Assembly (NCBI GenBank): GCA_963920765.1
Contig: OY987249.1
Coordinates: forward strand, 8,680,817 to 8,744,816
Length of the DNA: 64,000 nucleotides
From: Ulota crispa
Taxonomy: Eukaryota > Streptophyta > Bryopsida > Orthotrichales > Orthotrichaceae
Direction of reading: 5' to 3'
Under the pieces are notes generated by a model that was not told where the DNA came from, did no database searches, and saw nothing but the letters and a program-made list of their open reading frames with translations. Below are positions 729-62,141 of the stretch, one piece after another; within the stretch, counting starts at the first letter, position 1, and each line of letters begins with the position of its first letter. The translations under genes and the position numbers were made by a program.

Positions 729-1907
729 GGGGAAATTACAAATAGGGGCACGAAAACAAAAAATATTAACCCCTGAGCGCCCAGGCCGTATCCACCAAAA
801 TCAGGGTTTTTGGAGACCGACAACTTTGATGCATCGTATCTCGGTCAATCGAATGATCCTCAAAAAGTGACTATTGAAAATAATAGAACACCTACTTAGA
901 AAATGGTTTGCAAACTTTGGGAACAATTCACCGCGGGAGATGGGAGATTATAACATTTGATCAAACAACATGTGATGACAAAATCTCAATTTTTGGTAGG
1001 TAGTTGCTATTTGATGATTTTTACAAAATTCTATAAGTCCTGGATTCATCTCAAATTTTGTGAGTAGCAAAATTAGATGTGAATGCACACACTTATAAAT
1101 TATTGAAGATTGCAATTCTTTTTATGTCAAGTTTTAGGGCTTCAAACGGCTATTGCATGGAAAACAATGACCGGCATAGTCGGTGACGGCTGCCATAATA
1201 AGGGTCTAGAACATGCTTGAACCCTTGCCAACAACTTTCCCACTACCACAAAGGACACACAAGGAAGCTTACAAGGGATATTGACTGGTTACAACCTGTA
1301 AACTACTGCTTGCCACCATACCCCATACGATGCAACCACGCCCCATATGGTGTTTACACCCAATCAAACCTCTTGTAACACTTGTACAACATTTGGCTTT
1401 CCTCGCCATTACTCCCTTGGCATGGACAACTTGAATGCCTTCATAATTGTAATTTATAGCAAGATTTAAAAATTAGATCTAGTGCCACAAACACTGTTTT
1501 AAAATCTAGAGCAACCAAAATCTAGCTGCTGGGGCACCTAGGGGTTAAGAGTTTTAAAATAATTATAAGTAGGGGCACAATTTCAAAATACTTTTTTTAA
1601 ACTTTTTTAAAATATTTTTGGTTTGGACATTGAATGATTTAGATACATCACATTAAATGTAAGCAAGCTTCCAAATAATTTAGAGACCTTTCCAAAAATT
1701 GTCATCCCCTCTACTAAGATTTCTTATTTAGGCTTGATTTGGAAAGGCCTTTAAGTTTTTCAAAAGTTAGCTAACACTTAATGTGATGTATCTAAATCAA
1801 CCAATGTCCAAACCAAACAAAATTGGAAAAATTTACAAATTAGTTTGGAATTGTGCCCTTATCTGTAATATATTTTTTGTTTTCATGCCCCTATTTGTAA
1901 ATTCCCC
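729..1907. mobile_element. Mutator-like MITE with 9-bp target duplication, interrupted by a TTAA MITE
   Basis: The ends are inverted repeats starting GGGGAAATTACAAATAGGGG, and the interior is a fold-back built around 'agatacatcacattaaatg' and its complement. The flanks TTACTCTAT at 720-728 and 1908-1916 are a perfect 9-bp direct repeat, the size made by Mutator-like transposases. A second copy at 58992-59408 lacks the 770-1544 insertion, which confirms the nesting. Confidence 0.8.
770..1544. mobile_element. piggyBac-type MITE flanked by TTAA
   Basis: TTAA lies at 766-769 and 1545-1548. The left end reads CCCCTGAGCGCCCAGG and the right end, on the other strand, CCCCTAGGTGCCCCAG. TTAA duplication with CCC-starting ends is the signature of piggyBac-superfamily transposition. 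No coding capacity is seen. It sits inside the Mutator-like MITE at 729-1907. Confidence 0.7.
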
Positions 1908-1916
1908 TTACTCTAT

Positions 1917-4099
1917 TGTTAGCCAGTTGAAATTGCAAAGATATCCAGTTGAAATGGCAAAAACATCCGGTTAAAATTGCAAAATTATATAGTTGAAATT
2001 GCAAAAAAATTGGCTGAAAATCTAAAACTACCACCATTTTCTTTCAAAAATGCTTAACTATAGTATTTTGCAGCAAAAATACAGACATTTTACAAGAAAT
2101 AATTGGTCAAAATTGGGTAACACTAGATTTCAATTAATGAAGCTAAAATTTCTCCCCAAACAATAATTTGAATTAAGAGAAAATTTGTTGCATATCCCAA
2201 AAGTTTGAGACATTTTTACCAATGCACTGGGTTTTTTAGAAATTGCGCAAATACCCTTGGATCATAGTTTTCACTTATTTGATTTACTGTGCATGCTACA
2301 CTCTTCTCCATACATTTGTGCTCATGTAAAATAGGAAAGAAACAACTGGGATCATTCATTTTAACTAAAGGCAAAATTACTAAATGTACAACTTTACCCA
2401 TCACACTTTGCTCCTATATCTATATCTATATATATATATATATATATAAAAGTAAAATATGTATACGCCTTATAAAAGATAATAATAGCATGACATTAAA
2501 AAAAATTGTACAAAAGGTAAAGGAAGTGACATGCACAACATACCAAACCCAAAATAACTGTGGTCCAAGGATATTTGTGCAATTTCTGAAAAACCAAGCT
2601 CATTTTTACAAATCTCTCAAACTTTTGGGGTATCCATCAGATTTTGCTTTATATCTATATCCCGTACTAAGGAGCTTTTTATCGTTTATTCATTGGTTGA
2701 GCAACATGTACCTCCAAATGCATGCAGGTCAAGAAAAAATGGGTAGAACCATCCATATGTGAACGTTCATCCATCCATAGAAATTGCTAATAGTAGTAAG
2801 TTTCATCCAAAATTGACACCCTTGGTGTTTCGTTGAGGGGAATTTGAAGATCACTAATGTCAAAATGAAATAAGTTTCTGGCAAAAATTGCCTACAAAAA
2901 ACTTTCTAGCTTGCACACCAGATTCAATCCAAAAGTGAAATTATGGTAACCATAAGGTAGCTTCCATCTTTTCAAGAATCCATACGTTTTCAGGATATGA
3001 ACGGTGAATGAAAAGGCCCTAATGATTTTCCAAATAAGAGAAATGTATGAATGTGCTCCTATTTTGTAGTTGATCAAATTCTTTTTTGCCTTTCATGTAA
3101 GAAGTTTCTCAAATTTCGTCATTCAAAAATTAAATAATAATATGAACACATCCCTTGCCTTTGCTAATAAAAAAGTAACCAGTGTAGAAAGAGATAAAAA
3201 TGTCTTGCTGATAATCCATAATGCATTTATCAATTCAATGTACAACCTATTATATTAACTTCAATCTTCATTAGCAGAATGATTTGGACTCAAGCTTAAT
3301 AATGAAATGGATGCATCAACTTCTTTGCTAAAAATTGGAATTATAGTAATCTATTTCTGCCTTTATTCAATTCGAAAAAATTAAAACAAAAACAAATCCA
3401 AACACAAATGCTTGTACCTTTAACTAAAATTTAACTTAGTAAAATAGGATGCATAACAAAAATATGGTTCAATAACTTTAATTTTGGAGCTTAGACCTTG
3501 AAGTTATGATCAAATACATTGTGTTCAAGAAATTCATTAAAAATTACAATATGCTAAGACTTTGAGCCCTATCAACCCTTACCTTATTTTATTCACAAAA
3601 TATTCATTGTCATTTTTACCTTATAATCCAAAATTGAGTGATAACTTTAGAATCTCATGTTTTATTAAACTACATTACAAATCCAATAACATGTGCATGG
3701 ATGCAAAATAAAGTTTTGTTTGCAAGAAACCTATTCAACTTTGTCGGTTGTTTATAATTTGAAAACAAGCTCCATAATGGGTTTAGAACTCCAACATTCA
3801 ACCCTATAAGTGCAAGGATGTGGATAGCAAGTAGAAAAGGAACTTCTAAGACAATACATAGTATAGTCTGAAAAGATTTAAAAAAAAAATCTTCAAATTA
3901 GCGAGTTTTCTATTTCCTATCTCAACATAATCTAATTCAAGGCTTTGCACGTCATCCATGAAGCGCCCAATTACACATAGTTGTAGAATAGACAATGCAT
4001 GCTTTCTGAACAAATAACAATGACCTTCATCCTTTTCATGCAACTCACATGACAAGGTTCTAAGATCATTCATCTTCCACATTCTCAATGCATGCACTT
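1917..4099. other. AT-rich intergenic DNA without a recognisable gene
   Basis: Only short, low-complexity open frames are present. A TA microsatellite lies at about 2413-2449. Short phrases such as 'agttgaaattgcaaa' recur at 1920-2010 as a weak local repeat. No splice-consistent coding structure was seen. Confidence 0.5.
2413..2449. repeat. TA-rich microsatellite
   Basis: Imperfect ctatat units pass into an uninterrupted run of TA dinucleotides. Simple sequence repeat; no function implied. Confidence 0.9.
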
Positions 4100-4103
4100 T
4101 TAA

Positions 4104-5009
4104 CCCCTAAATGTTGAAGGCACCAAATTTTGGTGTTCAAGAAATTTTAAGAAACTTTGAAACCTTGTTGAAGGCAAAGATTTTACTATTTTGAGGTTGT
4201 TTTTGGAGAAGTTGTGGATTGAAGTTAGCTTCAAGTTAGCTTCACGGTTCAATTTTAATATCCTCCATACCTTATTCCAATTGTTTTTGGTGGAAGCTAA
4301 ATTGCAAGCATACCTCTTGCGCACCAAATGGTGAGATGAATAGTGTCATTCCAGAGCCTATAACAAGCTGCTCCATTGAAAAGACAGGTATCAAGTTGAG
4401 AATAAAGTGAAAATCTCCCTTGGACACGCCTTTGGGCAATAAGGGTCATTTTATTGAAATTTTGTCATCTAACAAATCTAAAAGTGCCTTTGGACTAATC
4501 TCACTTGAAACATCTTTGTTATAAAAATTAGAATACATTTACTATTGAATTTTCTTTCATTCATAATGATTTTTGGTCAACAATTGAAGTCAAAAAAATC
4601 TTTGTATTAGGTAGTTGTGCTTTTATAATTGCATTGCAAGCTCATTTATGAAACCATGGTTATGGATTTGGAAGAGGAGTTATTGGTTTTGAAGTAACAA
4701 CAACAAGCACTAAATCATCATAATTGGTTGTTTCTCATGTTTATATAAAAAAGTGGCCAGTTTTGCTCCTCAAGCTTCTAAAAAAACTAGAACATTCCAT
4801 ATTCAGCCATATTTGATCACAAATATCTTAAAATTTGCATGGTCTTTTTGGAGATTTTTTTGGGCACCACCATCTAAAAGCCTACAAGTTCAAGATCCTA
4901 ATGTTAAAATTTTATTTTGATGTTTAACAATGATCATGTATGGACAATTCAAACATTTCAAAACTAACTTCCAAAAACAAGAAAAAATACCGTTGGGCAT
5001 TTACAAGGG
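4104..5009. mobile_element. probable piggyBac-type MITE, degenerate right end
   Basis: TTAA at 4100-4103 is followed by CCCCTAAATGTTGAAGGCACC, close to the end of the 69-bp hairpin at 61954. The proposed right end, GGGCATTTACAAGGG followed by TTTAA near 5010, is mutated, so the right border is tentative. Confidence 0.45.
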
Positions 5010-5021
5010 TTTAAGGACTAA

Positions 5022-5765
5022 CTCTTGAAGGCCCAATTAGCGTATTTTGGCATTCTAGCAATTTTGGTAAGGTCACTACAAATGGGTTTTGCATTTGCTT
5101 TAAAAAAATAAATCACACATGAAGTACTCAAGGAGTAGCTTTAAGACCCAACAATTTTCATAAATTTTGACTTCATGGTTCAAAAGTTACTGCATGATCT
5201 GTTGTTTTCTTTGCTCCTCATGACAGCCTGGGCAGCTCAAAAACTTCTTTAAAAATTACATTTCAAGTTTTCTTTTTTTTAAATTGGTTCTTTAAATCTA
5301 CATACACGTACAAAGCTTTGAAACATTCAATTTCCATTAATGAGATGAAAGTTATGAGAAGTTTTAGTTTGCGGGTAGGTATGGTTTTGAGAGTCTCTAC
5401 ACCTACCCGAAAAGTAAAACTTCATCTCATTAATGGAAATTGAATGATTCAAAGTTTTCCACATATGTATAGATATATCTAAAGAACTAATAAAAAAACA
5501 CCAAACTTGAAATATAAATTTTAAAGAAGTTTTTGAGCTGCCCGGGGCTCGGGCTGCCATAATGAACAAAGAAAACAACAAATCATGCAGTAACTTTTGA
5601 ACCATGAAGTCAAAAGTCATGAAATTGTTGGGCCTTAAAGCTGCTCTTTGGGTACTTCATGTGTTAAATTTTTTTTAAAAAAAAGCAAATGCAAAACCCA
5701 TTTGTATTGGCTGCCCAAAATTGATAGAAAGCCAAAAAAAAAATAACTCCTTCGGCCTTGAGGGG
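5022..5765. mobile_element. long fold-back piggyBac-type MITE (family A)
   Basis: Two arms of roughly 350 bp are inverted copies of each other; they share for example 'gcagctcaaaaacttcttt' and 'ttttgacttcatggttcaaa'. The right end GGCCTTGAGGGG abuts TTAA at 5766-5769. The left end CTCTTGAAGGCCC follows CTAA, a one-base change from TTAA. Internal sequence such as 'tttgcgggtaggtatgg' recurs in the elements at 27937-28877 and 54404-55335, which defines a family. Confidence 0.75.
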
Positions 5766-7574
5766 TTAACCCCTAAACGACGACAGGCCACCGTCTTCCT
5801 TGCATTGTAAAGTATAGTTATAGTTGTCTCTTTTCATTGCACAGTCTTGATAGATGTCTTTTGAAAAATTGGTTCCGGTGGATGCGTATGGTTTGCTTGT
5901 TCAATGTAGTTGCAGTTCTTTCAGAGAAGATCGAGGTCATGATCTAGAAATTGTCGAATCTTCCGGTGGTATAGCAAATGGCGAGGCGACCCAAAAAAGC
6001 GTACATCCCTCCGTAGGAAACGCGTAACATCTGTGCCACATGCGGTTTGAGCGGATGGCAGGAAGCAAGTGAGCTGTCTTTGAGATGTACACGCAGTGCA
6101 TCAATTGCTGAATATTGGTCTGGATATGGCATTACTTCTGATGGTCTAGGGGGACAAGTACTTTGTGGCATGTGTATAGACTTGAGTCACCATAGCTGAC
6201 CGCGACATCAATCATGTCAACGCGGAGATTGATGCCTTGATACACTTCAGTCACGTCTGTCGACTGTCAACCGCATTGTTGATCTTTTCAACTTTCAGAT
6301 AATCTCTCCGGTTTGAAAAGGGGGGAGGAAAATTGTATGGGATTCTGCCCTACTTGTGCACGTCTTGGGTTGGTCACTGTTGAAGGCCCTTCGACAACGC
6401 AACCATGTACTTTTCATGGTCGTTGCCAGAGTTGCGAGTAAGCGGCAGAGTGTTGATGTTTGGAGGTTTGAGTTTGGTTTCGTTGGGATGGAAGTCTTTT
6501 TCTCATCGTATCGTTGACGCAATTATTACTCATTTGAGTCTCAATTAGGACCGGCGGTTTCTCATAGTTCTGAGCGGTTTGATCGTTTTCGCGGACTGGA
6601 GCTTTGAACACGGTGTTGACTTGTTCTACAATTCGTGTATTACTCCGTATGTTTCAAGCAGGTGGTAAGATGGACTTGGGTTGATTAGGGTTGGGGTGCT
6701 TGGGGTGGAAGCTCGCGTTACGTACTTGACGGTGACGATGACTTCCGGTGGCTGGTGTTTAGAGCCACCATTTTGACCCAAGATTTGCGTTTGACCGTGC
6801 ACTACTACACTTTGTTGCAATGAATCCCTCCATGTCTTGAAAGGGTATACATGTGGGCCTAAATTTCAATTTTGCCTTTCTATGATGTGTACTACAATGG
6901 ACCACTACGTTCTTCCACCCGCATGAACATACGGTACATTAAGACAACCTCGTGACTAGATCGGTTTTCAAGATGAATTGGACAAGATAAAGCATCGTTG
7001 ATCATGGTGCATACAGCTCAGGCCACTTCCGTTGCATATACAGTCCACAGACTCCAGACGCATTCATGACAAACGACACTTAGCGCTATACCATATTTAG
7101 TACATAGATCTTTTCTCACAACAAAGTAAAAATTTATATTAAAATGCTCTATAAAACATGAAATGATCAAAGTAAACCTATCATTGCAAACACAATTCAT
7201 TTCTTTCAAATAACAATATAAAAAACCCAAGTACAAATTTCTCAATCCACCGCGCCAAAACAAGTGACAAGGAAATCTGGAGTCTCGAGGATGCATAGTC
7301 TGTAACATCTACATATCTAAATTTGAACTAAACTTGACGTTTTATCACAAGTACGTGTCCAATTCTCACCACATCTCACGGTACTATCTCCTCGTTCAAC
7401 CAACTTTGACTACACCCCAATCTTTTGGTCTTCCAAAGACTGTAACTTCCCTGAAAAAAACAAACCTTGATCCAATGGTTCAGCAAGTACCTGTCCAACT
7501 CTCACCACATGTCATGCTACTATCTTCTCACTGAACCAGCTCCAAGAGTGGAACACCCTCTATGCCAACGACAG

Positions 7575-8460
7575 TCAACAACAAACTTGTGCTCCATAAT
7601 CAGCTTGAGTATGCACCCGCACATAACAGAATCCCTCACACATGAACATAGCACTGCAACCACCACAAAATTGACAAATGCATCGTCCGCAAACCACGCA
7701 TGCGCGCCTGTGGGTTTCATGACCCTCTATATGGTGAAACTGTGGACATGTGAGAGTGCAATGGAGGCCATGCATAGTCCATGCCTGAAGATGTGGACGC
7801 ACTAATGCCATCGCCAAGCCGGAATGCCATAGCAGCCTGCTCTGAACCTCTAAACCAACACGCTCTGCATCCTTGCGGTAAAGAACATAAGCATTCAAAC
7901 ATAATGAATCTAAAACAAACATGACTATGCGATGCCACCACTTGTGCGACTGCAGCTGCACCGTATAACTCCCCCTTTGCTGATCTACAACGTCGTCCCT
8001 GCGCATGTTCTTTTGGTACTGTAGCAGAATAGGGCTTGTGGGGAAGTTCACCCTATCTCGCTTGATCCAGCAATCCACAATTGTCCCCTCCTTGATTGGA
8101 TTTGTTGTCGTGTCAAGAAACCACACGAGCTTGAAGTCTATCCAACATATGGCAAAGATGGCCTTTGACCGGTGCATCTTCGTGATCAATGTTCCATGCG
8201 GTGGGAGCTGAATGTTTGGAAAACGTGCTAGTGATGAGGGGAATCTTTTTGACCCTTTCTTCACGGTGCCTGTAGCGTAAAACCCCAAGTCCAACAATCT
8301 CATGAAAAACTTCACACCTGAGAAAAGATTGTCTGTTACAACTATGTGTCCGCAATTCTCTATCCCCCTCACCACTCGCAAAATGACGTCTTCTCCCACC
8401 AATGCCCCCTCCTCACATTCTCCGCCTACGTCCAAATAGACGAGAATATTAGACACGTAT
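7575..8460 (-). CDS. piggyBac-like transposase, C-terminal exon
   Basis: This ~295-residue reading frame has no internal stop. It matches the second half of a piggyBac-type DDE transposase (DDE_Tnp_1_7 family). Seen in order: an Asp in VVTDN (about residue 51, the usual second catalytic Asp), VWFLDTTTNP (about 120-129), MRRDDVVDQQ (about 160-169, the usual third Asp region), the aromatic segment HKWWHRIVMFVLDSL, and a C-terminal Cys/His cluster (CVVCGRCICQFC, then more Cys and a His) like the Cys-rich DNA-binding tail of the family. An acceptor (aacgcag) at 8461-8467 implies upstream exon(s), which should hold the first Asp; I could not place them. The family cuts and pastes at TTAA, matching the many TTAA elements around. 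Whether it is complete and active cannot be seen. Confidence 0.75.
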
Positions 8461-9589
8461 CTGCGTTCACAACACAACAACACCCATTAGTCAACAAACT
8501 TCCATACTTCCTTGCATGAAGGTCCTAAGCTGATTTGACAGCCGCATGTGCGGACCCAATATTGCCGCGCAGGTGCAGAGCACAACGCAATCTCAACCCA
8601 CAGAACGCGCTAGAACATGGTTTCAGGCCCATTGCCACCAACAATCCAGGGCCAGCAAGCGCATCGTGCCAAATCGGATAAGGCCAGACAATCAATGCTG
8701 GTAACACGTCTAGAGCTAGCAATCAACCACGGCGTCGCTCAAATTCACCACTACCGGTCGCGGCCTAGCATTAGTTGCACCGTCACAAACGCAATACAGA
8801 TGTTTGTACGGTCCCAATAATAAGGCGGAAGGTACTTTTCCATCTCATTGCCTCGCAAAGTCACTACCAACTGTCGTAATTCCACTGCAATGCATGTCAA
8901 AGGTTGTTAACAAGCCGACAGCTAGTGCTCTGCTGCATCGCCGCACGGAGTCACGGTCATAACTTTCCACCATCGATTTCTAATGAGGTCCGATGCAGCC
9001 TTAGAGGCGCGGCTAGCCTTCAAGGCGTAGATTGCTTGGGAGTCACGGCGCGAGCTAGCACACGCGGAGCGCTTGTAGATCACGTTGCTTCCTTACTAAC
9101 ACGCGATGCATCTTCCACAACTTGGGGAACATCAACATTATGGGAATATAAATGCAAGACCAAAAAAATCCTTCGGAACTAACAACTGAAGACGGTATAC
9201 TTCACAGTAAAGGCCTCTATTGCATGAAATTGAAAAATATAGAGACAGCCATGCTAATAACATGATGTGGACCCAAATCCGTAGTATGAATTTTTAAAAT
9301 TATTTCATCCAAGTATTCACTCCATTCACATCGTTCTCATATCCCGCCCACAAAAAATAAGTATTAGAACTTCAAAAGCAATTGAAAGAGAAATGAAGGA
9401 GTTCTATGGATTTTTACCTTGACTAACTTGAAGTAATGGCTTAAATCTTTATCCCAAAGCGTACTAGTTTAGAATTCATATACTGTTTGATTTTGCAAAA
9501 TCTCTCTTTGTAAGATATCATGATCTTATCAACGGTCACCACTGCTTTGTTGTTGTACAAGCTTTTGCATGCAAAACTCTCAATCAAGG
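8461..9589 (-). other. region upstream of the transposase exon; missing N-terminal exons expected here
   Basis: GC-moderate DNA with short minus-strand open segments, for example around 8525-8722, but no motif of the piggyBac N-terminal domain that I can recognise. It may hold diverged exons, introns or the 5' leader of the transposase. Confidence 0.3.
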
Positions 9590-10202
9590 TACGGTATCCT
9601 GATGAAGATCTCTTCATCATGTAGATATTTGTTATTTATTTATGTTTATGTTGATTTCAATAAATCAACAGTTGTGGCAAAAGGAATGGTCATGGTGAAG
9701 ATTACGGTTTGGTGATAGCGCAGCGGCCATAGATTCCAGTGTACTGCGCCGTCTTGTTACATACACAGCTCAAGGAGATAGGTAGCAGATTGGCTGAGCC
9801 AATTTCCTACCTCACTAGCTCCCAAGCCGTGAGCTGCCATCATCGTTCAACGAGTTTAATGAGATTTGAACTTGGATCGGCGGGTGGCCAGAGACGATCG
9901 CTTCTCCAGCCAATCAAGTCCACGACTTGACAACTGAAGACAATCGTTTGAAGCTATTATATGCCTGCAATGGCACGTAGCTACTTTACGGTGGAGATTA
10001 TTTTGTAATTTAATCATCTTTATATGTTTATCTAGATATTTTGGAAGGCCCATATATTTGACATGTGTTTGAATAAAAATACTAAGGATTTAAAAGTCAA
10101 TGGGAAAGATGTAAAAAGAAAAAATGTATGACATCTATGGTGGAGTTAGAATAAAGATGGGCATGGACTGATGTGCCCCACCTTCCTACCTTAAATAGGG
10201 TT
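9590..10202 (-). repeat. left arm of a ~600-bp inverted repeat
   Basis: Read on the minus strand, this matches 18668-19266 on the plus strand at roughly 80% by eye, from GGTAGGAAGGTGGGGCACA to the palindromic end around TGATGAAGATC. It includes a decayed version of the tRNA-like box. The outer ends share ACGGTATCCTGATG against ACGGTGTCCTGATG. Confidence 0.75.
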
Positions 10203-16557: not shown

Positions 16558-16969
16558 GGGCATTAATATGTGAACCACACCCTTTGAACTACTGTACCAC
16601 ACCCTTGGGGTAAATTTTAGATTTCTACCATCAAAAATTTGAGTTTGAGAATTTTGAATTCAAACTTGGACTTAGAGACCATGGTATTGTCTAGAACCAT
16701 AAAAAAAGTTGCAATTCAACAACACCCAATGAAAAAGCTTATCTTTTTTTACAAACAAAAGTAAAATTAACAATTTTCTCCCTAACTAAACTTTTTCATT
16801 GGGGGTTGTTGAATTGCAACTTTTTTTATGGTTCTAGACAATACCATGGTCTCTAAGTCCAAATCTGAATTCAAAGTTTTCAAATTCAGCTTTTTGATGG
16901 TAGAAATCTAAAATTTACCTCATGGTGTGGTATAGTAATTGGAAGGGTGTGGTACACATATCAATTCCC
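16558..16969. mobile_element. fold-back element, family X, inside the CACTA element
   Basis: Two arms around 'gcttatctttttttac' are complementary over almost their whole length, including 'accataaaaaaagttgcaattcaacaac' in broken form. The ends resemble GGGAATTGATATG of the other family members (20886, 27860, 33063), with GGGCATTAATATG on the left. No clear target duplication was found. Confidence 0.65.
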
Positions 16970-34838: not shown

Positions 34839-34872
34839 AGGTGGGCACACCCTTCTCCGACCCCTCCCTTAA

Positions 34873-37663: not shown

Positions 37664-37697
37664 TTAAGGGAGGGGTCGGAGAAGGGTGTGCCCACCT

Positions 37698-45080: not shown

Positions 45081-45682
45081 CCCCTCACCGCCCATGGTAT
45101 TTTTGAGTATCTCAGAATTTGCTTGAAAGGGAACAAAATGCTAACACGATGCCGACATTTTGATCAATCTTATCAATTTTCTCTTAAATGCAACAGTACA
45201 AATCCAAAGTACACATGTTATAGATCACATAAGAAAAGAAATCACAACAATATCACTTGTGGATTGAAAGATTATAATGTTTGATCATGAGGGTGTTAAA
45301 ATTGCAAAAGTGATTTGAAGTCTTTCAATCCTCTCTTTGCATCTCAAACCTAAAACTGAGGGTACCAAAAAAAATGTAAGTATGTACAGTATAACATGCA
45401 TAACCCCAATCAATTTACAGCTTCTCAAAATCTATTCTATAAATTTTTAGATTGAAATTTTCAAAACTAGAAAGTGAAGAATTACTATGGACACCCTTGT
45501 ACAAAATCTTGAATAGACAAATCACTTTAATTCATTTTCAAAATCAGATTCCATATGTTGAAACTAGACTTCAATAAGAATTTAAAAATAATAACAATCA
45601 CTAAAAAAATCTTGAAAAAAAGTTGCATATCTCTAAATAAAATTCAAAGAGGCCCAATTCAAGCCCTTTGGGCGGTGAGGGG
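45081..45682. mobile_element. piggyBac-type MITE, family B (mirror copy)
   Basis: Mirror of 26854-27455, with TTAA at 45077-45080 and 45683-45686 and CCCCTCACCGCCCA ends. Confidence 0.85.
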
Positions 45683-46353
45683 TTAAAGGATCCAGAACGG
45701 GTGCAGTTACCTTACTTTATGATGATCATAGTTTACTTAATTGCTTTTGGAAATTCTTTTACTTGTGGTTGATTGGCACTTGGGTAGCACTGTTGGGATA
45801 CAAATATCCAATCCCTCTAAAAAAACATAGGGAGGGACCTGTACAGTTGGAGAGTATCACTGTTGGGGATACAAGTGGCCATTCACTCTGGAACAGATAG
45901 AGAAGAATTGGAGGGACCTGCACATTTGGTTGCAGGAGATGCTCTAAGGTCCCGTGATCCTGATTACATGAAGAAGATGAGAGGTGCTTTTCCACAATTT
46001 CTTTCCTGAAACTGACAATTTTAAATGATATCCGCCTTTAGAGCACTAGATTTTACTGCTAGCATTTAGTTGTAGTGCTGACATTTTATAGCTCGAGGTA
46101 ACTCATGCGATTCTTGGATGCACATTGCCCTCTGCATTACAAAGTTGGAGCATTGATGACTAAGTTAAATCAAAACTTCATGCCATCTGCCTTTCACACA
46201 AATTCATTAGTTTTCTACTCCTTTCGGTATTGACAAAGCGACTTCGTATCTACCACAGAAACCCAAGAACGCTACTCTCTAACGAACAGTTTACAGGATG
46301 GCAGCATAAGATTCTAGGTCCAAACACCGACGAAACAAACACTGGGAAACCAT

Positions 46354-46366
46354 TGGTATCAGGGCC
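46354..46366 (+). other. primer-binding-site-like sequence (mirror copy)
   Basis: TGGTATCAGGGCC, mirror of 26170-26182. An open frame continues downstream on the plus strand from ATG 46374, but its Pro/Ser/Arg-rich product is not recognisable as a Gag protein. Confidence 0.3.
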
Positions 46367-47626
46367 TCCGACCATGTCACAATCGGTATTCACCGACTCC
46401 AAGCCTCATCAGAGGCCCGTTTCTGCACCTCAACGAGCTCCGACGGAAAACTCCGGCAGACGAAGTCGCCCGTCCTCGTCATTCCCACCCGCCCTCGATC
46501 ACGACCATTTCAATACCCACCGATCCGCCGACCACTCTTATGAAAGTCTGACCGCACCGGTACCCGCAACCACCAGACAACCCCGCCCTCACCGTGCCTC
46601 ACAGCCGGCCCCATGCATTGCGGCAGGCAACCTCCGTGCACCGCGGCTCTCAAAACTCCCGCATCCCTTCAACACCACCATCTGCCAAACCCGCGGCAAA
46701 ATCACAGCCCCACACAGACCCACGAAGCCCACGCAATTCCTCACGACGCCCCGGTTTTGGAAACAGCTAAAAACACAACATTTACATGACATCGCTTCTC
46801 CTACAACGCACCTACGGGACCTCCCACCATCAAAGGCGCAGCACCCATTTACATGTCTACAGCCACGGTTCGGCTCTGCTCCCGTCCTCGTCACTTCCAC
46901 ATGTGACGGTCTACCCTACCAACACGCGCGCTCGAGCACGGAGCGCGGTGACGCCCCCTTCGCTAGCTTGGTCCTGCCGCCACCGACTATGACACCTCCA
47001 CTTCCACCTCCACTTCCGCTTCATCCGCGCCGCCTGACTCGGACGAGGCCGCTCGCTCAGCGCGCTCAACCCCCCGTCGGCGACTTGCCTTGCCTTCTCG
47101 CCCTCCTGTCGCTCCCCATGACCTCCATCGCCATCGTCTGGTCGCGTCGGGTTCCGCGGATTTCGACCCGCTCGGTCACCGCCACATTCGCGCGCGACCA
47201 TGACGGGAAAAGAAACAGCCCCTCGTCCAGTACGCCCAGCTCCCTCCATTCGCACTCCGTTCCCATCCTCTTCCTTCCACCACGCAAGCACCTCGCGCGC
47301 GCGCGCCTCTGCCCGCTTCCCGCTCTCGACGGCTGGTTCTCGTAAACGTTCGGTCCCCGACCAACGACTGTGGCTGCGGACCGGTGTCCGCCTCCGCGAG
47401 GATGGGCCGCGCCACCCCGTTCCACCAGCACTCGGCGTCGACGAGCGCCCCCCTCGCCCTCGTCGAAAAACACCGAGCGGCACACGCCGCCGCCTCCCTA
47501 CCGGCTCCGACCAAACGGTCGCACAAACACACGCACTCAGGTCCCGAGATCCGGCCACAGCCCTCCTCGCCGACCGCGACGTCCCTCGGCTCGACGCCCG
47601 ACTCGCTCCCGCCCTGCAACCGTCCG
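46367..47626. other. GC-rich island, mirror of 24910-26169
   Basis: CpG-rich DNA with long overlapping Arg/Pro/Ser-rich open frames on both strands, not called as genes. Confidence 0.4.
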
Positions 47627-50385
47627 TCATTGGATCACGCACGTGCACGCCTGCGACGAGTCCGAGTCGTCGTCGCTGTCCTCCGAGTCATCGGAGTCGC
47701 TGCTGTTGCACGCACACCCCACGCCATGTCAGATACACCCCACACTGCCCCTCCGCGCACCTCACCGTCCCCCCTCCCGTCACCACACACCCCGACCCCA
47801 GCGCGGATGGCTCACCTCACTCTCCCGGCCTACCACGTGCGCCCACTCACTCGCCCACCGCTTCCATGGATCTCACGCGACGGACCGCCTCCCACCCACC
47901 CTTCACCCTCACACACACCAACGCCCCACCCGACAAACCCCGCCTGGTGCCAGGTCGCGGCTCTCTCCACCCGACACCAACATAAACCCATCCTCGTCAC
48001 TCACTCACTCACTCGGGTTCACCGTGCCCAGACGGACGACCACCCCACGGGCCACACCCTCCACGCATGCCACTACACGCTCCCACACATGCACGCCCAC
48101 ACACACACCATGCCGCTCGGCTCGTACCTGGGCTCGAACTCGAAAACTTGCGTCAAGTCCTTCCCGTAGCTGTCCACCCACTGGATCTTCGTCCCTCTCT
48201 CGCCCTCGCCCTGCCGGTGCTCCAGCTCCTGCGACTCCCCGAATCTCGCGTCCCTGCCCTCCACGGCCGGAGCCCCGTTGCCGGAGTGCGACGTCGAAGG
48301 GATCGTCGACGTCTGCTTCAGGTTGCTCTTGCCCGGCACCTTCTGCGTCGATCCCAACGCGTACCCGTTGGCCTGCGCGCCCACCCGATCGCCGGATCCG
48401 AACGCGGGTGCGGGCATCGGAGCGGGAAGCGTTGTGGGTGCGGACGGGGCCATGGCCGCATCCCCCTGCGCTGCGCCCGCCTCTGCACCTCTTCTGCGCC
48501 GCCCCGAGCCTCTCCTCGTCCCACAACACAGGCAACACGCTCCGCCGGCGCACCCTCGGGGGGTGTCCTTGTCTGTCGCCAGCGAGGACAACGCCCGTCA
48601 ACGCGAATCCACCCCTCCCCTCTCCTCCCCGCCCTCGTCAATCCCTCTCTACCTCAAATCCCCTCCCCACTTCCAGCGCCTCCTCATCAAGGGCCTCACC
48701 TCGCGCCTCCTTTCCCTCACGGCCCTCTCCACACCCGCGCCATCGTGCCTCACATTCCCGACGCCGACTGTCCAAACCTGAGGTCCGCTCTCTCACCTGT
48801 CCATCTCCAATTCCAGCACGATGGAGTGCGTCCCAAAACCTACATTTCGACACTCCAAACCCCGCAACACCGCCGGACCTCTCCTACGCTCCACGGATCC
48901 ACTCCGCACGCTATCCAACATAGGGGACCAAAGGAATGCCGGCAGGAAGGACCACGTGCATCGATCTGCAGTACCTTAATTCCGCATCCTCATACGCCGG
49001 ACTGGCCTCCATGAAAGAGCCGGATTCAGCTCTCCGTCGAGCGCCCCAGACGCACTAAATCCCTCGCACCTGCAAGGACGAGACCAGATCAGCACACCAA
49101 CGAGAAGCGATCCAACCCGATAACTCCCTCACCGAGACAACCACCGGCACCATGCTACACCCGGATACTGGAAGCTCTCAAGCCGTAACCCGCCAACCTA
49201 GCATCTACTCCATTTCCACGCCCTCCGTCAACGCAATCTCATTTGCAGCCAGCCAGCCATCCCATATCATTTCACGCAGCCACAAAAGGAATGCCTTTCG
49301 GGTACCGCCGTGTGATCTCCACCATTGCCGGTGGAATGTTGTTCACCTCAAAAACAGAACTACCCTAACGCTGAAAAGACGAAGCATCACAGAGTCGGAC
49401 TTCGCTTGGGACACGGACTCTATCGTCGTCATCCCGACCACCCTACTACGATCCTACACTACCACGGAGTTCTCCAGGAATCTATCGTCGTCTTTGACCT
49501 GACTCCGTAGTCAGCATCGCAGATCCTGCCCTAACTCGGGTGTATAGCAATCACAGGCTGTTCAGCTGTCCGGACAGCGACGCGCGTGGACTTGGTGCTA
49601 TTCACTCAGCTTGGACTCTGCACAGCTTGACTGCTCCCGGCATCAAGAATTCACCAGATCCCCTGTGGACGCGAGCGGAGCCACTCGAACCACAAGGCAC
49701 GGGCCTGCTCACATGGATTGTCACCGGCTTTCCACCATCCACCCGCCCGTACCTTTCCACACACATTCACCGGGCCCCCGATCTCTCACGGCCACCTCCT
49801 GCCAATGCCTGCCATTTCTGCTCCTCCGCACTACAAACGCACCACACCAGCTGCACTCGGACTAGCTTCTCTCTGCCAATCCCAGTTTTCCATGAAACCG
49901 GGACGAAGTCCTTAACTACTCTCGATCCATCGAACTGCAGCCACACAACCAGAGATTCTCCCCTCCGGAACCAGTACCAAAGTAGTCACTCTCAAAGTGC
50001 ATGAACAGAGAAAGCAGGTCCACGAAATGCAACGAGTCGTACGCGAAAGCTAGGTTTCAACAGGGCAGTCGCAGATCACCCGTGCTACTCCTCGAACAGA
50101 AACAGATGTCCAAGTGGAGGACGAGGATAGTCGAGTTGAAAAACGGTGGACGACGCCACTGACAAGAAAAGTATCTGAACTACTACAAGGGGCTCCGAGA
50201 GATATGTTCACCAGAAAACACCATTCTTGTTCGTCATGCAAAGTTAAAGGACGTGGCGAGGCTTACCAGGATGTGCAGATAGAGGACGACGATTGCGAAG
50301 GCATCAGGGGAGAGGAGCGAGCGATGGCGTCCGAGGGAGATGAAACCCTAGAAGAGAGGAGCTTCGCATGGCCATAGCCAGCCAT
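47627..50385 (-). CDS. small acidic-tailed plant protein with CaaX box (right copy; middle of the gene model uncertain)
   Basis: Convergent partner of the gene at 22219-24909. The 3' exons (48128-48453 from the possible internal ATG, then 47627-47702) are identical to the left copy and encode the QWVDSYGKDL core, acidic tail and CVIQ end. Outside the palindrome the proposed 5' exon (50267-50385, donor GTAAGC) is only similar: it starts MAGYGHAKLLSSRVSS where the left copy starts MAFHVGFHLCSNAI. Both then run through Ser-rich sequence to CT(L/S) and a phase-2 donor. Conserved donor position and phase, despite indels of multiples of three, suggest a translated exon, although a transcribed leader is possible. 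Upstream on the minus strand is a plant-type leader (CCCTAAACATTCGCTC). Confidence 0.5.
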
Positions 50386-53666: not shown

Positions 53667-54044
53667 GTAGACACACCCATTCCTACTTGGTCCCCAATTC
53701 CACACCCTACTTTTGATATTTTCACCACCCACTCTTGAACCCATATTGGAGCAGTGAACTCTCCTTGCACAAGCAAATCTTGCCACATGTCACTGCTGAG
53801 GTGCTTTGAGATGGTTGGGATTGGGACCATCAAGTGCCATTATAGGAACACATCCATGCATCTTCAAGGCTAATCTAGAGTTGCTAATAGGCACCTTGTG
53901 AGTTGCAATTTTGCCCTTTAATATAAAATAATCTACTATACTTTCTTCCACAAAAATTACATTCCATGATAGCTTGTTGAAAGGTTAATCCTACATATTT
54001 TTTTCTTCAATTGTTCAAGACCTTGAGGTGCTCCAAACCCTTAA

Positions 54045-55342
54045 CTCTTAAGCGTCTGATGGGTGGCCGTGCCCGCCCATTGCAGTGGTTTCTATAATGG
54101 TGTGGTAGGTGCCCACCCATTAAAATGTTGTTTTATAAAGTTGCAAAAGTTGATAGTGCTTGGCGCCCTCATGAAAATTGCAAGAAGGGTAGCTTGGGAC
54201 TTAACACTGTGATTTTGAATCTTATCACAATTTGGATTACAAAAAAATATGAATGCATCTCATGAGGTAATTTTTTGCCTTCTATAATGGACCATATATT
54301 TATGGTCACTTGTGAAAAAAATCAGATGAAAAATGACTTTTTTCTGAATCACAAAATCTTTTTTCAGAGCTGGAAGACGTTTTTTGTCCTCCTCAACATT
54401 TAACCCCTAAAGGCCCAAACAATGTTTTTTTAGCAACCTCGCAATTTTGGACAACTCACTACAAATGGATTTTTCATTTTTTTTCTTTGAAATTTTCACA
54501 CATGATGTGTCCAAGTAGTAGCTTGAAGGCCCAACAAATTTCATAACTTTTGACTTCATGGTTCAAAAGTTATTGCATGATATGTAGTTTTCTTTGTTTG
54601 GAGGCAGCCCGGGTAGCTCAAAAAACTTCTTTAAAAATTACGTTTTTTGATTTTTGTTTTTTGAAATTGGTTCTTTAGATATATATATCCTTAGAAAGCT
54701 TTGGGTCATTCAATTTTCATCAATGAGATGAAAGTTATGAGGAGATTTTGTTTGCGGGTAATTATGGATTCCCTACTCTAAAAAAAACTTATAAGTCCTA
54801 TGTTTTACTCAATTTTTAATATTTTGGAAAAAAATAAAGCCAAAGTACGTAGATTGTTTATTACAACATTTCAACCGTTGGGATTGGAATTTTCGTTTTT
54901 CATAATTAAATTCTTAACAATTTAGTGTTTTGTATCATTCTCTAATTCTTTTTACTTAATATTTTTTTGTATGTGTCATACATTTCCAAATGATTTGAAA
55001 ATTTTCAAGTGTGTACCCAACTTGCCTTGAAAAATGAATACAAAAAATTACAACCATTTTGAAACTTTTTTCATACAAATATGACCTTGTGAAGTGCAAC
55101 TGCTTGGATTTTTGCAGAGACAAATAACGACTTTTTGTCAATTCAAACTCAATCACCTAACAATCCACATGGCAAAATTCTTTGAATTTTTTCCACATCT
55201 TTAGATACTAGTGTACTACAAGATCTTATGGTTAGATTTGTCCAAAAATAACTTTTGTATAAAATTTGATACTTGCACTACAAATGGCAATTTTGGGGCA
55301 GTTTTGATGAAAATATAGTCAAAAGCCTTTAGGGGTTAAGGG
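54045..55342. mobile_element. piggyBac-type MITE, itself interrupted
   Basis: TTAA at 54041-54044 then CTCTTAAGCGTCTGATGG. The right end before TTAA 55343-55346, rejoined across the inner element, reads inward CCCTTAAATGTTGAGGAGG. Ends similar but diverged. Confidence 0.5.
54404..55335. mobile_element. piggyBac-type MITE (family A), innermost of the nest
   Basis: TTAA at 54400-54403 and 55336-55339. Ends CCCCTAAAGGCCCAAAC and CCCCTAAAGGCTTTT read inward. It shares 'acttttgacttcatggttca' with 5022-5765. Confidence 0.85.
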
Positions 55343-55345
55343 TTA

Positions 55346-55641
55346 AGACAGGAGCACCCATAAGTGTTAGTGTCCCCATAACCATCACCTCTAAAATCTT
55401 GGAAAATCTGTGGAAATGAATAGATGTAATTACAATAATGTACAACACGTGAACATGAAACCTCACTGTTGCTTATGGGTGCAATGGCAATTTGCTCTTT
55501 ATAAATTCACAACTTATTCTCATAGTATCCAAATAATACACTTGAAAGTGCAAAGTCATTATTTTTCTGTTCCTAATAGGATCCTACAATTTGCTAACTG
55601 TTTATTAATACTCATCATGATGCTTATGGGTGCTCCTACCT
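55346..55641. mobile_element. G-family element
   Basis: Ends AGACAGGAGCACCCATAAG and AGGTAGGAGCACCCATAAG read inward, with TA on both sides (within TTAA). Related sequence at 50721-50990. Confidence 0.7.
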
Positions 55642-55644
55642 TAA

Positions 55645-56266
55645 CCCCCAAATGCCCAAGGCCTTTTTGAACTTCTTGGCATTTTCAAGAAAGTGAACAA
55701 TCAACCAACCTTTTCATAAATCTCATCAAGTTTTTTAAAATTGTAACGGTACAAATTTAAACTTGACATGTTAGAGATTGCATGGAAAAAGAAAACACAA
55801 CAATATCACTAATAGTTTGAAAGATTATAACATTTGAACATGAGGGTGTTAAAACTGCTAAAGTAACTTGAAATTTTCTAATTTTCATTTCACATGTCAA
55901 TTCTAAAAAGTTGGTCATCAAAAAAATATGAGGTTTAAGATCATTACATGTTTACCTTTAATCAATTTACAGTTTCCAAAATCTACTCCTCTATTTTTTT
56001 AAAATGGATTGCTAATGAGGATTTTTCTCCAAGCTCTAATGTATTTGAGGCTCATTTTCAAGAACTTCCAACACTAGAAAACTCAAGATTGCAGTGGACA
56101 CCCTTGTACAAAATTTTGAATAGAAAAATCAACAATATTCATTTTTTAAATTAGATTTTTGATGTTCAAAATAGACTTCAAAACAAACATGTGTTCATGA
56201 GAAAATATCAAAAATAGTGATTTAATAAGGCAAGCACCCAATTTGGGTGCCTTAGGCATTTAGGGG
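55645..56266. mobile_element. piggyBac-type MITE (family B)
   Basis: TTAA at 55641-55644 and 56267-56270. Ends CCCCCAAATGCCCAAGG and CCCCTAAATGCCTAAGG read inward. The interior resembles 26854-27455 reversed. It lies about 60 bp from the first P1BS site of the SPX promoter. Confidence 0.85.
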
Positions 56267-56328
56267 TTAAATGGTCGGGTATGGGACTACGGGTGCGCCT
56301 ACCTTATGACGCCGCCTGGAAAATATTA

Positions 56329-56456: not shown

Positions 56457-56763
56457 CCTTGCCCCTGTCAGTTTCTCCTTCCTTCCGAAGGCTTCCTTCC
56501 AATCCGGCCTCTCCCCTGTCTCGCAGCACCAGCCCTTGCACTTCCACCATCGCCAGATCCTTTGATGCTTTGCTGCGCATGCCGAACCCGTCGTCGCCAC
56601 TTTCCTTACCTGTAGTTGTCAAGCTTAGTTACTGCATTTTCTCTGACCTCGGTTCCTTCATGCTCTTACTCGCATTCCCGTCTTTCTGTGGATCCCCGAG
56701 GCGTGCTCTGTTAATTTCATCTTCGGTGTTGCTGTGGTGTACTGCGAGGGTTTGGCGGACTCG

Positions 56764-59700
56764 ATGAAGTACGGCAAGCTGTTGCAGCTGCTTCTGGAGC
56801 AGATGCCCGTGGAGTATCGTGATAAGTTCTTGTCGTACAAGCAGTTGAAGAAGGTCATCAACACGATTCTGCAGGAGAACTCCTTGCCGATTGCGGCCTT
56901 TGTCGAGGCGCCGGAGGGAGTTGTTCAAGGAGTGCCGGGGAAGCGGGCGAGGGGGAACGAAGAGAGGGAGGCTAAGGTTGTGGCTGTGGCTGTGACGGGA
57001 GAAGCGAAGGGCAGCGGTGGTGCGGCTGTAGCTGTTGGAACGAAGAGGAAGGCTGGTGGAGAAGGCGAAGCAGAAGCAGAAGCTGAAGCAGAAGCTGAAG
57101 CAGAAGGAGCTGAAGGTTTGGCGGCTGTTCGTGCCAGGACTGGCGAGGAGAAGGAGATTATTAGCAAGGAAGCGGAGAATTTTTTGCGTCTCTTGAATGT
57201 CGAGCTTGAGAAATTCAACAGTTTTTTCACGGAGAAGGAAGAAGATTACGTCATTCGCTTGCAAGTATGTGTTTGTCACGTTTCTCTGCCATGCCATGCC
57301 ATGCCGAGGCTTCTCTCGCTCTTGATGTGATGTGATTTGCTTTGGTCTTTCGTCGTCCGCAGCTGTTTCAGGAGTGATGATAAAACAATTGTTTGGTGTT
57401 TATCGTGAACAATCGAACCTTTAAAAAAATAAATCTGACGTGGAATGCTTACAATTTTAGCGCTTTGTGTTTGCATGTGTTTGTCCCCTCGGAAATGAAT
57501 GATGAGAATGAATAACGATAACGGAGGAATTTCGTTCTAAGTCTTACATGTAGTTCTCCCTGCTTATGGAGTTTAGATTTGAACGTTGTAAACATGTGGA
57601 AGCTAAATGTTTGTTTAAGTAGACAATGGCCATGTCTGACCGTTTAACATTTTTTAAAATGTTCTTTCAATTGTCTTTTATGTTCTTTCAATTGTCTTTT
57701 CCTACATGGTTCAAAAATGTAGAAACTTACTGTGTTTAATAAGAATGTGACGCGTGTTGAAAAGCGAAATGCATGTTAGAGTTTATGATTCCAAACAATG
57801 AAGTGGTTTACTTGGAATTGTGACACGTGGTTATAGGAGTAGTTAAATACATTGCTGATTGTAATTTGTACAGTTATTCAATCTGGTGAGCATCATATAT
57901 TGAGGAATGTGTTGCGAAGGCACATGAAAGTTCTTTATTTATTTTTGGTATAAAGGTAGGAGACTCGTGAATGGACCATCTAAGCAAAAGTGCGCTTCTG
58001 TGGAAAAATCAGGGCAACTTGGTTAAATAGAAATATTTTTGTTAGAAAGCCAAAGAAGAGACAGTTTTTGTGGCCATTTAATTTGAAATTTTCTGAGGTA
58101 GTATGAATTATCTGCAATTTATCAAAGCAAAAGGTGCATAGGTAGCTATTCTTGATCATAGGTGGTAGCATTCATGATGCAAAGGTGGCTTGTAAATGGA
58201 GCACATGAGTCCTAAAAGCAACCACTACAAAGTCAAGAATGTTTCAATAAGACTCTTAAAGTGGACAAGCACCCATTCCATATTCTAATACTCAAATCAT
58301 GATTGAGAACAAGTTTTCAGTTATTTTAGTATGACATATATATATATTTTATTGAAAGACAAATCTGAACACAATTATGACCAACAAGCACACTCAACAA
58401 TGGCTCATGTCACTTTCTTAAATTCCTAAAATAGTGCATGCATAAATACAATTTCTGAACATTAAAAATGTAGGGGTCGGTCCAAAATGCCCGCTCTGAA
58501 TTCGAGCCTCCTACCTTAGAGGTATTTGCAATGAGCCGCTTGATTTAAACTTTGTTGTTAGAGGTCCCTACGTTATGCTAAACGAGCAGATTTATGGATG
58601 CCATTGAACTAAATTAACTTGATGCAAACTAGGCACCGAGGATCGCTAAGAGTCGCCTTGATCGCTTAACCTTACAAATCTCAGTCTTGTTGTATACTCA
58701 GCTTTCAAGTATCCACTCAGAAGGTGTTGGTGTCCATGAAACATTGTGTCCCTGGCTGTGAAATTGTCTTTTCTCAATCAATTTCTGTTCGTGATGTATT
58801 GCAGGAGCTCAAGTATATGCTGGAGAAGGTGCGCGAGCAAGGTGATGCGGATGTGCACCCAAGAGATCGGATCAATGATCTCATGGCAATCCGAATAGAT
58901 CTTGTCACGTTGCATGGAGAGGTTATTCTGATGGAGAGTTATAGCACCCTCAATTATACAGGTGAGCCCTTAGGAACCTGGATTCATTTTTGGGAAATTA
59001 CAAATAGGGTCATGAAAACGTAAAATATTACAAATTGGGGCACAGTTTCAAAGTAATTACAAATAGGGGCACGATTTCAAAAAAATTGTAATTTTTTTAG
59101 TTTGGACATTGGTTGAGGTAGATACATCACATTAAATGTTAGCTAACTTCTAAAAATTTTAAAAGTTATTAAAAATTGTCGTCCTCTTTACTAATTTTTT
59201 TTTCTTTAAGCTTGATTTGGAGAGACCTAAGTTTTTTAGAAATTGGCTAACATTTAATGTGATATGTCTAAATCAATCAATGTCCAAACCAAAAAAAGTA
59301 ACAAAAATTTACAGTTTTTTTTGAAATTGTGCCCCTATTTGTAATTATTTTGAAAATATGCCCCTATCTGTAATATTACGTTTTCATGCCCCTATTTGTA
59401 ATTTCTCCTTCATTTTTTGATCATTATTGAACGTTCTTAAGCTCGCGAAAGACCTAAAGGCCACTTTGTAAGCATATTGCTACAGAAACGTGGGAGTGGT
59501 TCTTGAGCTTATTTCCACCTACACTCTTACTGAATTCTAGCCGAGTTTGTATTGCTTTTTACGTGTCATTGAAGGAGTGTAATCCAATCAATCTTCTAGG
59601 AGTATGTAAGAGCGTGGAGCGATTCTTTGATTTAAATGTCCTTTTATATTTGGGCCATATGCAGGGCTGGTGAAGATACTGAAGAAGCATGACAAACGCA

Positions 59701-60784: not shown

Positions 60785-61199
60785 AGGTAGACACACCCAT
60801 TCCCGAACACTCCCCAATTCTGCACCCTATTTTTTTTTTATGCTTTCACCACACACTCTTGAACCCGTACTGGAGTAGTGAACACTCCTTGCACAAGCAA
60901 ATCTTGCCACATGTCAGTTCTTGAGCTGCTTTGAGATGGTTGGGATTGGGGACCATCGCGTGCCATTTATAGGAACGCATCCAAGTCGTTTCAAGGTTAG
61001 TCTAGAGTCGCTGATAGGGACCCTATGAGTTGCAACTTTGCCCTTTAATCTAAAACAATCTACATTACGTTTTTTCCACAAAAATCACGTTCTATGATAG
61101 CTTGTTGAAAGGCTAACCATACGGATTTTATTTCTGGAATTTCCAAAACCTTGAGGTACCCCCAAACCCTTAAACAGTCGAGTATAGGTTTGTCTACCT
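60785..61199. mobile_element. R1 element, uninterrupted copy, just downstream of SPX
   Basis: TA at 60783-60784 and 61200-61201. Ends AGGTAGACACACCC and AGGTAGACAAACC read inward. It lacks the TTAA MITEs seen in the copies at 34839 and 53667 and so serves as their empty site. It starts 76 bp after the SPX stop codon, so it probably lies in the 3' UTR or terminator region. Confidence 0.8.
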
Positions 61200-61202
61200 T
61201 AA

Positions 61203-61428
61203 CCCTTAAATAACTGAAAGGTCCTTTGCGACTAGTACAATACGAGATATTTTTCTTGTATTTGGAATGGATCCACACCTTTACTACATTTGAGACCAAC
61301 AAAAAAGTTGGAGAATAGATCAATGTGGTTCTAGTGAACTACTTGAAATCCCAACTTAAAATTTCTTATTGGTAGCAAATGACAATTATACTTCAGCATA
61401 TGTAGAATGCCCTATGGTCGTTTAAGGG
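61203..61428. mobile_element. piggyBac-type MITE abutting the R1 element
   Basis: TTAA at 61199-61202 and 61429-61432. Ends CCCTTAAATAACTGAAAGG and CCCTTAAACGACCATAGGG read inward. Confidence 0.75.
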
Positions 61429-61432
61429 TTAA

Positions 61433-61949
61433 ACGTTGACGATACCACTGTGATTCAATGCTACATGCTTCGTGGCTGCGTTCATCTTCACTTCCAAGCC
61501 TGAAGGAGAAGAGGGATTGGGTTACCCGTTTGTGATAAGAGATCCAAAGTCATTTTAGGGGCATTTACCCATCAAGCACCAGAGTCTCAATGGTGCTTGT
61601 GTTATGCTGCAAGATATTCCAGGGTTCCAATCTATCTTTTGATTGTGTGCAGCTGACATTGAGAGATCATTTCTGGAGAATCTCCTCCGTCAAGAAGGTC
61701 GATGACTGCCGCTGTAGTGCAGCAGTTATTCATGAGAAGAAAGAAGAAAATTACATCAGTCGGGGTAGTTTTTTCAGAAAGGGCACCTCTTTATTACTCT
61801 CTTCACGGGGATTGAACCCCAAAGAGCTGGTTTTGGCCAATAATTTCCTTTTCAATGTCCTTTTATATTTACCTTTGCTTCGTCTTGCAATCTAGATTTC
61901 TCTTTTGTCAATCTTGGCTATTTTCCTTATTCTGGTTCTTGACGGTACG
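61433..61949. other. DNA downstream of SPX with a possible alternative 3' exon
   Basis: At 61644-61652 'tgtgtgcag' could be an acceptor, followed by a short open segment DIERSFLENLLRQEGR ending in TGA. Nothing proves it belongs to the SPX transcript. A plus-strand open frame (61590-61895) has no recognisable domain. Confidence 0.25.
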
Positions 61950-61953
61950 TTAA

Positions 61954-62022
61954 CCCCCTAAATGCCTGAGGCACCAAATTCTAGTGTAAATCACCAGAAT
62001 TTGATGCCTCAGGCATTTGGGG
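61954..62022. mobile_element. 69-bp hairpin with piggyBac-type ends
   Basis: TTAA at 61950-61953 and TTGA at 62023-62026. CCCCCTAAATGCCTGAGGCA and its complement form an almost perfect stem of about 28 bp around a 13-nt loop. It is the smallest possible member: two ends and no interior. Confidence 0.75.
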
Positions 62023-62141
62023 TTGAGGGAGACATTCCCATTGTTATCCATTTCACAACACTGCTCTCCTATTTCTCTGGTAAATGTTTGCATTGTATAA
62101 TGAATGCCGTGTTTACATGAGAGCTGAATTAGTGATGGGTA

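Follow-up and report, generated by a model that had tools for sequence, protein, structure and literature searches.

The window, a stretch of 64,000 nucleotides from chromosome 8 of the moss Ulota crispa (bases 8,680,817-8,744,816), contains a dozen short repeats. Most probably, these repeats are non-autonomous miniature inverted-repeat transposable elements (MITEs) of the piggyBac superfamily, 71 bp to about 0.95 kb long, which were moved into TTAA sites by transposases of elements of about 5 kb. We give this explanation a probability of roughly 96%. TTAA flanks, an empty insertion site, similar tips on transposase-bearing elements and homology of the transposase were all observed. From these we infer that the window MITEs were moved by these transposases, and likewise the timing of the movement. 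In the proposed mechanism, piggyBac transposases from the 5-kb elements of the same genome would bind the CCC-type tips, excise the MITEs and reinsert them at TTAA, which would leave a TTAA flank on each copy.

Elements of the window

Right ends were placed by pairing of ends, from blastn alignments with sister copies and by direct reading. L-numbers (L006-L048) denote genome loci fetched for comparison. The twelve elements are as follows.

766-1548 (target-site duplications, TSDs, included), forward strand: piggyBac MITE; TTAA on both sides, ends CCCCTGAGCGCCCAGG / CCCCTAGGTGCCCC.
4100-5014, forward strand: piggyBac MITE with a decayed right tip; left end TTAACCCCTAAATG, with a palindrome centred on base 25.
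5018-5769, no strand assigned: fold-back member of family A; CTAA and TTAA flanks, the right TTAA being common to another end at 5766.
26850-27459, forward strand: piggyBac MITE, family B; TTAACCCCTCACCGCCCA on both sides, tips closely similar to those of transposase-bearing elements.
27933-28881, forward strand: piggyBac MITE, family A, within a palindromic repeat; empty sites found.
34869-35096, forward strand: piggyBac MITE inside another repeat family; right flank AAAA.
35434-35681, forward strand: probable decayed piggyBac MITE, the weakest case; TTAACCCCAGAGCTCCCC / CCCTAAGCGCCC, right flank ATTA.
54041-54403, forward strand: piggyBac MITE, right tip lost, abutting the 54400 element; has sister copies.
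54400-55339, forward strand: piggyBac MITE, family A; TTAACCCCTAAAGGCC / TTAACCCCTAAAGGC, 79% match to 5019-5387.
55641-56270, reverse strand: piggyBac MITE, relative of family B; both flanks TTAA, the end at 56270 palindromic.
61199-61432, forward strand: piggyBac MITE, 234 bp with TSDs; TTAACCCTTAAA on both sides.
61950-62026, forward strand: micro-MITE of the 71-bp family; TTAA and TTGA flanks.

All twelve sites start at TTAA or one step away from it. An earlier note on this DNA had described at least a dozen elements that lie between TTAA or one-step variants and begin with CCC. Eleven ends are clear and the one at 35434 is only probable. CCC follows TTAA at ten of the twelve sites; the element at 5022 begins with CTC after CTAA, and that at 54045 with CTC after TTAA. 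Both flanks are TTAA and both tips are intact in six elements (766-1548, 26850-27459, 27933-28881, 54400-55339, 55641-56270 and 61199-61432). The two internal families proposed in the same note, A (5022, 27937, 54404) and B (26854, 55645), were recovered by blastn at 70-83% identity.

Sister copies in a random 80-kb sample and in the fetched loci often end at the same TTAA as the window elements. The family A element 27933-28881 has an 88% copy at L043:3204-4156 that stops at the same TTAA, and 61199-61433 has a 90% copy of equal length at L046:1275-1509. The family B element has a 79% copy (26850-27465 against L042:5795-6448), and 55641-56270 matches it in inverted orientation at 71-79%. Copies related to 766-1548 were found in L046 (83% over 741 bp) and L006. 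Elements with a damaged end have copies too: both TTAAs are present in the copy of 4100-5014 at L045:2466-3210 (72% over the left 400 bp) and in the copy of 34869-35096 at L046:908-1127, and three copies of 54041-54403 (L042:9114-9503, L041:1498-1909 and L044:6087-6449) have a CCC tip next to TTAA at either end. No second copy of 35434-35681 was found among the fetched sequences, and no partner was found for the orphan ends at 5766, 19913 and 29329. The element 5018-5769 is self-inverted (79% over 727 bp), and each half matches the left part of 54400-55339. A similar TTAA-flanked fold-back of 726 bp lies at L039:1530-2255, where each half resembles the left part of family A (79%); it may be a left/left element that arose naturally and transposed.

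Empty sites were found for the 27933 insertion. When its flanks were joined with one TTAA, they aligned without a break to numerous copies of a palindromic repeat that lack the insertion, both in the window and at L012, L046, L048, L022, L038 and L034. A single TTAA stands at the empty point in L048 and in one L022 copy, and the other copies show variants. The flanks of 34869-35096 run on into each other in three copies of its host repeat, with no exact TTAA there. The joined flanks of the micro-MITE 61950-62026 matched only their own locus, and no empty copy was found. The host of the 27933 insertion is a second palindromic repeat family with many copies and ends like GGGAATTGATATGTGCACAC (16558-16969, 20939-21325, 28880-29215 and 33113-33436). 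Another repeat family, with the left end GTAGACACACCC, lies at 35101-35438, 53667-54045 and 60787-61173 and has copies in L006, L007 and L040.

Target sites across the genome

Genome-wide searches covered 274,817,297 bases in 157 contigs. This copy is slightly trimmed relative to the 275,217,579 bases and 408 scaffolds given in the excerpted text of the published genome note (PMC11803377). The pattern HNNNCCCCTAAAKGCC occurred 8,014 times against 7 in the control. It excluded only G at the first flank base, and flanks were read in 100 listed ends of the 8,014. Consistency of TTAA flanks across the genome had been set beforehand as a test of the piggyBac assignment, and 86 of these 100 ends have TTAA. 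The pattern TTAACCCYTHACCGCCYA was found 649 times against 1 in the control; without the TTAA requirement it was found 728 times against 18, and 89% of these have TTAA. Under identical rules, the non-redundant window gave five paired ends for TTAA-CC (54400-56270 being a cross-pair, which leaves four elements) and none for each of seven other A/T tetramers. The random sample gave six (one a cross-pair) against 0-2 for the other tetramers. The target-site duplication is therefore TTAA, as in the piggyBac superfamily.

Tc1/mariner (Stowaway-like) MITEs, which duplicate TA, would give a similar picture if TTAA were a mere preference. Mariner MITEs are common in plants, and TA is the middle of TTAA. 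In the 100 listed ends, however, the outer T and outer A were each conserved at 97% (G being excluded at the first base), as strongly as the two inner bases (93% and 97%), so that the outer bases are not free. In addition, a piggyBac transposase domain lies inside transposase-bearing elements with related tips. We consider a Tc1/mariner origin very unlikely.

Transposases and full-length elements

The genome was searched with the piggyBac transposase profile PF13843 (DDE_Tnp_1_7), and 116 of 528 candidates were scored. There were at least 120 matches at no fewer than about 116 loci (four loci being in two pieces each), with a best score of 254 bits; a fragment in the window lies outside this match list, so the locus count is a lower bound. 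At least three pairs of loci resemble duplicates. The same profile gave no match in 14 control genomes. The fragment of the window is:

7575-8483, reverse strand: piggyBac transposase fragment; PF13843 E=1.3e-21, profile positions 160-349.

It comprises the C-terminal part of the catalytic domain and a cysteine-rich tail (CxxC...CxxC). A stop-free frame at L019 matched Myotis piggyBat (9c0f, 1.2e-21) and Trichoplusia ni (T. ni) piggyBac (6x67, 1.1e-16). In its alignment to piggyBat the aspartates of DE, DN and VD..DQ are retained, which we take to be the catalytic residues. Of 30 loci scanned, 20 have a CxxC...CxxC motif 177-207 bases past the catalytic domain, in line with the cysteine-rich C-terminal domain that belongs to the piggyBac superfamily. 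In four of the 30 loci a further CxxC motif match lies elsewhere, with no clear second domain.

Three transposase-bearing elements were delimited at both ends: L039+L009 (5,026 bp), L040+L018 (5,025 bp) and L041+L014 (5,101 bp). The first two are 90.5% identical throughout, and their surroundings differ. All six flanks are TTAA except the left one of L040, which reads TTCA. The tips of the three elements agree with CCCCTCACCGCC of the window MITE 26850-27459 at 9-11 of 12 bases. The enclosed transposase thus ties CGCC/TTGCC-type tips directly to piggyBac, and tips of the CCCCTAAA type would be tied to it by their similarity.

Kolobok is another superfamily with TTAA duplications, and the target site itself would suit an origin from Kolobok-type elements equally well. 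The tips and the transposase point elsewhere. The ends are terminal inverted repeats of 12-19 bp with a CC[C/T]T-type tip, a piggyBac hallmark in the excerpted text of PMC2872659. The enclosed transposase has the piggyBac domain, and no search aimed at Kolobok transposases was made. A Kolobok origin is in our view even more improbable than a Tc1/mariner one. The assignment to piggyBac-type MITEs that the earlier note had made is supported by the TTAA duplication, the tips, the empty site and the piggyBac transposase that full-length elements carry between tips of close similarity.

Number and spacing of the ends

The 12-base end TTAACCCCTAAA occurred 30,972 times genome-wide against 77 in the reversed control, an excess of about 400-fold. 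The shorter TTAACCCTAAA occurred 1,499 times against 1,105, only 1.4-fold; this much weaker excess indicates that the fourth C matters. Among the 100 listed ends of the HNNNCCCCTAAAKGCC search, facing ends less than 3 kb apart had spans of 79 (three), 637-656 (ten) and 929-948 bp (four), with single spans of 386, 579, 1503 and 1724 bp, and one pair stood in the opposite order. Among 100 listed CACCGCC-type ends, 13 of the 14 facing pairs under 3 kb span 648-656 bp. The elements are short, non-coding, numerous and homogeneous in length, as MITEs are. CCCTAAA is the plant telomere unit, and the weak excess of TTAACCCTAAA is what chance TTAA-CCC matches or telomere-like tracts chosen by eye would give, but the 400-fold excess of the full end, the recurring spans and the sister copies that stop at TTAA leave this idea with almost no credibility.

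Micro-MITEs and palindromic ends

The pattern TTAACCCCTAAATGCC-N30..60-GGCATTTAGGGGTTAA was found at 69 places genome-wide and at none in the control; it is palindromic, and forward and reverse counts refer to the same 69 places. Among the 50 of these that were listed, 43 are exactly 79 bp long with both TTAAs. The 71 bp between them are laid out as two 35-bp arms plus one base (35+1+35). In the 43 exact-length copies, the consensus has a palindrome centred on base 25 of each 35-base arm (0.65 complementary), and no other centre with seven pairs exceeded 0.38. Random re-pairing of the arms gave 0.62, so the palindrome reflects a consensus that the arms have in common rather than covariation. 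Usually one of the two arms is strong, with at least five of six outer pairs in 30 of the 43 copies. The other has at most three outer pairs in 37 of 43, and random sequence does likewise in 83% of cases. A micro-MITE with two equal palindromic (left-type) ends was therefore rejected. A duplicated cysteine-rich domain was also rejected as an explanation of the micro-MITEs, since no clear second domain was seen in the 30 loci.

Longer elements show a similar layout. In nine of 18 longer delimited pairs (15 MITEs and the three transposase-bearing elements), one end has at least five of six outer pairs, a level reached by 3.4% of random stretches, or about 7% when the better of two is taken. The other end has at most three outer pairs in all 18, as in 83% of random sequence. 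When ends were pooled, a palindrome peak at base 25 appeared in the AAATGCC-type (9) and CGCC-type (10) groups.

According to the excerpted text of PMC11707139, T. ni piggyBac requires LE35/RE63, and its two ends contain 19-bp palindromes at asymmetric positions. The palindrome is bound by a cysteine-rich dimer, and the right end of piggyBat has no palindrome. Two piggyBat left ends are non-functional, and T. ni LE35/LE35 is functional with an added cysteine-rich domain. The piggyBat palindrome covers bases 19-32, as derived here from the motif positions in that paper. By analogy, the one-sided palindrome near base 25 in the moss resembles the left/right asymmetry of piggyBat and may be where the cysteine-rich domain binds; with shorter ends, the layout in the moss would fit such an asymmetry. 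We tentatively suggest, at somewhat below even odds, that piggyBac is a major DNA transposon in this moss and that its derivatives include a 71-bp micro-MITE that consists of nothing but two complete transposase-binding ends set back to back. In that case, about 35 bp per end would suffice for an unmodified moss transposase to move DNA, below the LE35/RE63 of T. ni and with only an engineered LE35/LE35 system coming close elsewhere (PMC11707139, in excerpt), and the transposition complex would impose the constant 71-bp length. This constant length could also reflect descent from one 71-bp source.

Points against a piggyBac origin

Several observations weigh against the view that the window MITEs were moved by these piggyBac transposases. 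Two of the twelve elements have both TTAA flanks and a decayed right tip (4100-5014 and 54041-54403). Four have a flank other than TTAA on one side: 5018-5769 (CTAA), 34869-35096 (AAAA), 61950-62026 (TTGA) and 35434-35681 (ATTA). No transposase-bearing element was found with the commonest tip, CCCCTAAA. The window fragment 7575-8483 has no DNA-level match to the two types of full-length element, and element ends looked for around it were not found. Nearly all PF13843 matches are broken by internal stops if introns are ignored, so that the transposases need not be active at present. In the pooled ends, no peak at base 25 was seen in 16 AAAGG-type or 22 other ends.

Comparison with known systems

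PiggyBac, a leading tool of genome engineering, is associated chiefly with animals and fungi. The moss elements have in common with T. ni piggyBac and Myotis piggyBat a DDE_Tnp_1_7 transposase (with a significant match), a cysteine-rich tail motif, the TTAA target and a palindrome beside the tip at one end. The moss elements differ from both in their host and in a full length of 5.0-5.1 kb. Their 71-bp derivatives are shorter than the minimal LE35 plus RE63 of T. ni, and are close to the engineered LE35/LE35 pair of T. ni, combined there with an added cysteine-rich domain (PMC11707139, in excerpt). The CMITEs of the coral Acropora are likewise piggyBac MITEs of near-constant size (about 100 bp) with TTAA flanks and tips such as CCCCTCAGTG and CCCTTTAAGC, estimated at about 1,600 copies in the excerpted PMC2872659. 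One moss 12-base end alone is present 30,972 times, and the moss micro-MITE family is shorter (71 bp) and stands among several larger families.

That such elements are unusual in plants, as the earlier note had held, is partly supported. The excerpted text of a 2022 land-plant review names six superfamilies with terminal inverted repeats in plants and does not contain the word piggyBac (PMC9033089). In contrast, a 2024 review names PiggyBac among the superfamilies of plants (PMC10794571), and a 2023 review has it among seven angiosperm MITE superfamilies (PMC10004981), both as excerpted. A repeat table for the fern Ceratopteris gives PiggyBac with 1,230 hits and 122 kb (PMC6890710, in excerpt). 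Such plant annotation entries, as far as the excerpts go, are class names or counts, whereas in the moss the transposase, tips, TSD and empty site occur in one genome. Among the titles and abstracts listed, with most subscription journals outside the search, no report of piggyBac elements in a moss was found; in the excerpted text of one moss paper (PMC10619864) the term is present only as 'piggybacking'. Two points are new here: the size of the piggyBac expansion, for a land plant, and the 71-bp micro-MITE family. A large expansion in a land plant broadens the known range of piggyBac and directs attention to transposases resident in plants and to natural ends that are very short. Moss annotators gain a repeat class to look for.

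Abundance, assembly and other features of the window

The sequences 22524-36156 and 36380-50009 form a 13.6-kb inverted repeat of 99.7% identity around a scaffold gap:

36157-36356, no strand: gap of 200 N, splitting the two inverted copies.

A true inverted duplication, two joined haplotypes or an assembly fold-back are all possible. Owing to this repeat, the four elements of 26850-35681 recur at about 36854-45686 in the second arm. We masked 36157-50009 when counting in the window, which leaves 50.1 kb (50,147 bases) of independent sequence. This sequence has six perfect 12-base ends, and the genome average predicts 5.7. The window as a local hotspot was therefore rejected, and the 'swarm' of the earlier note is in fact a density found genome-wide. 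The 80-kb sample (the first 8 of 120 random draws) has 12 such ends, with 9.0 predicted. Delimited elements occupy 5,944 of its 80,000 bases (7.4%, 11 elements), a rough estimate of coverage, and 6,726 of the 50,147 bases of the non-redundant window (13.4%, 12 elements with 35434 counted). The whole genome holds tens of thousands of such ends, and the window is typical of it.

In the window, nothing reached the Rfam gathering cut-off, and no tRNA was found. A reading frame with an SPX domain (PF03105, 1.2e-11) lies at 56734-57330. The sequences 9591-10190 and 18670-19267 form an inverted pair of 82% identity about 8.5 kb apart. Related fold-back repeats (about 71-76%) with short tandem units lie at 1550-1906 and 58992-59405, with more matches in L047. 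A self-inverted repeat at 62140-62362 (89% over 224 bp) has ends resembling GGTAGGTACACCCA.

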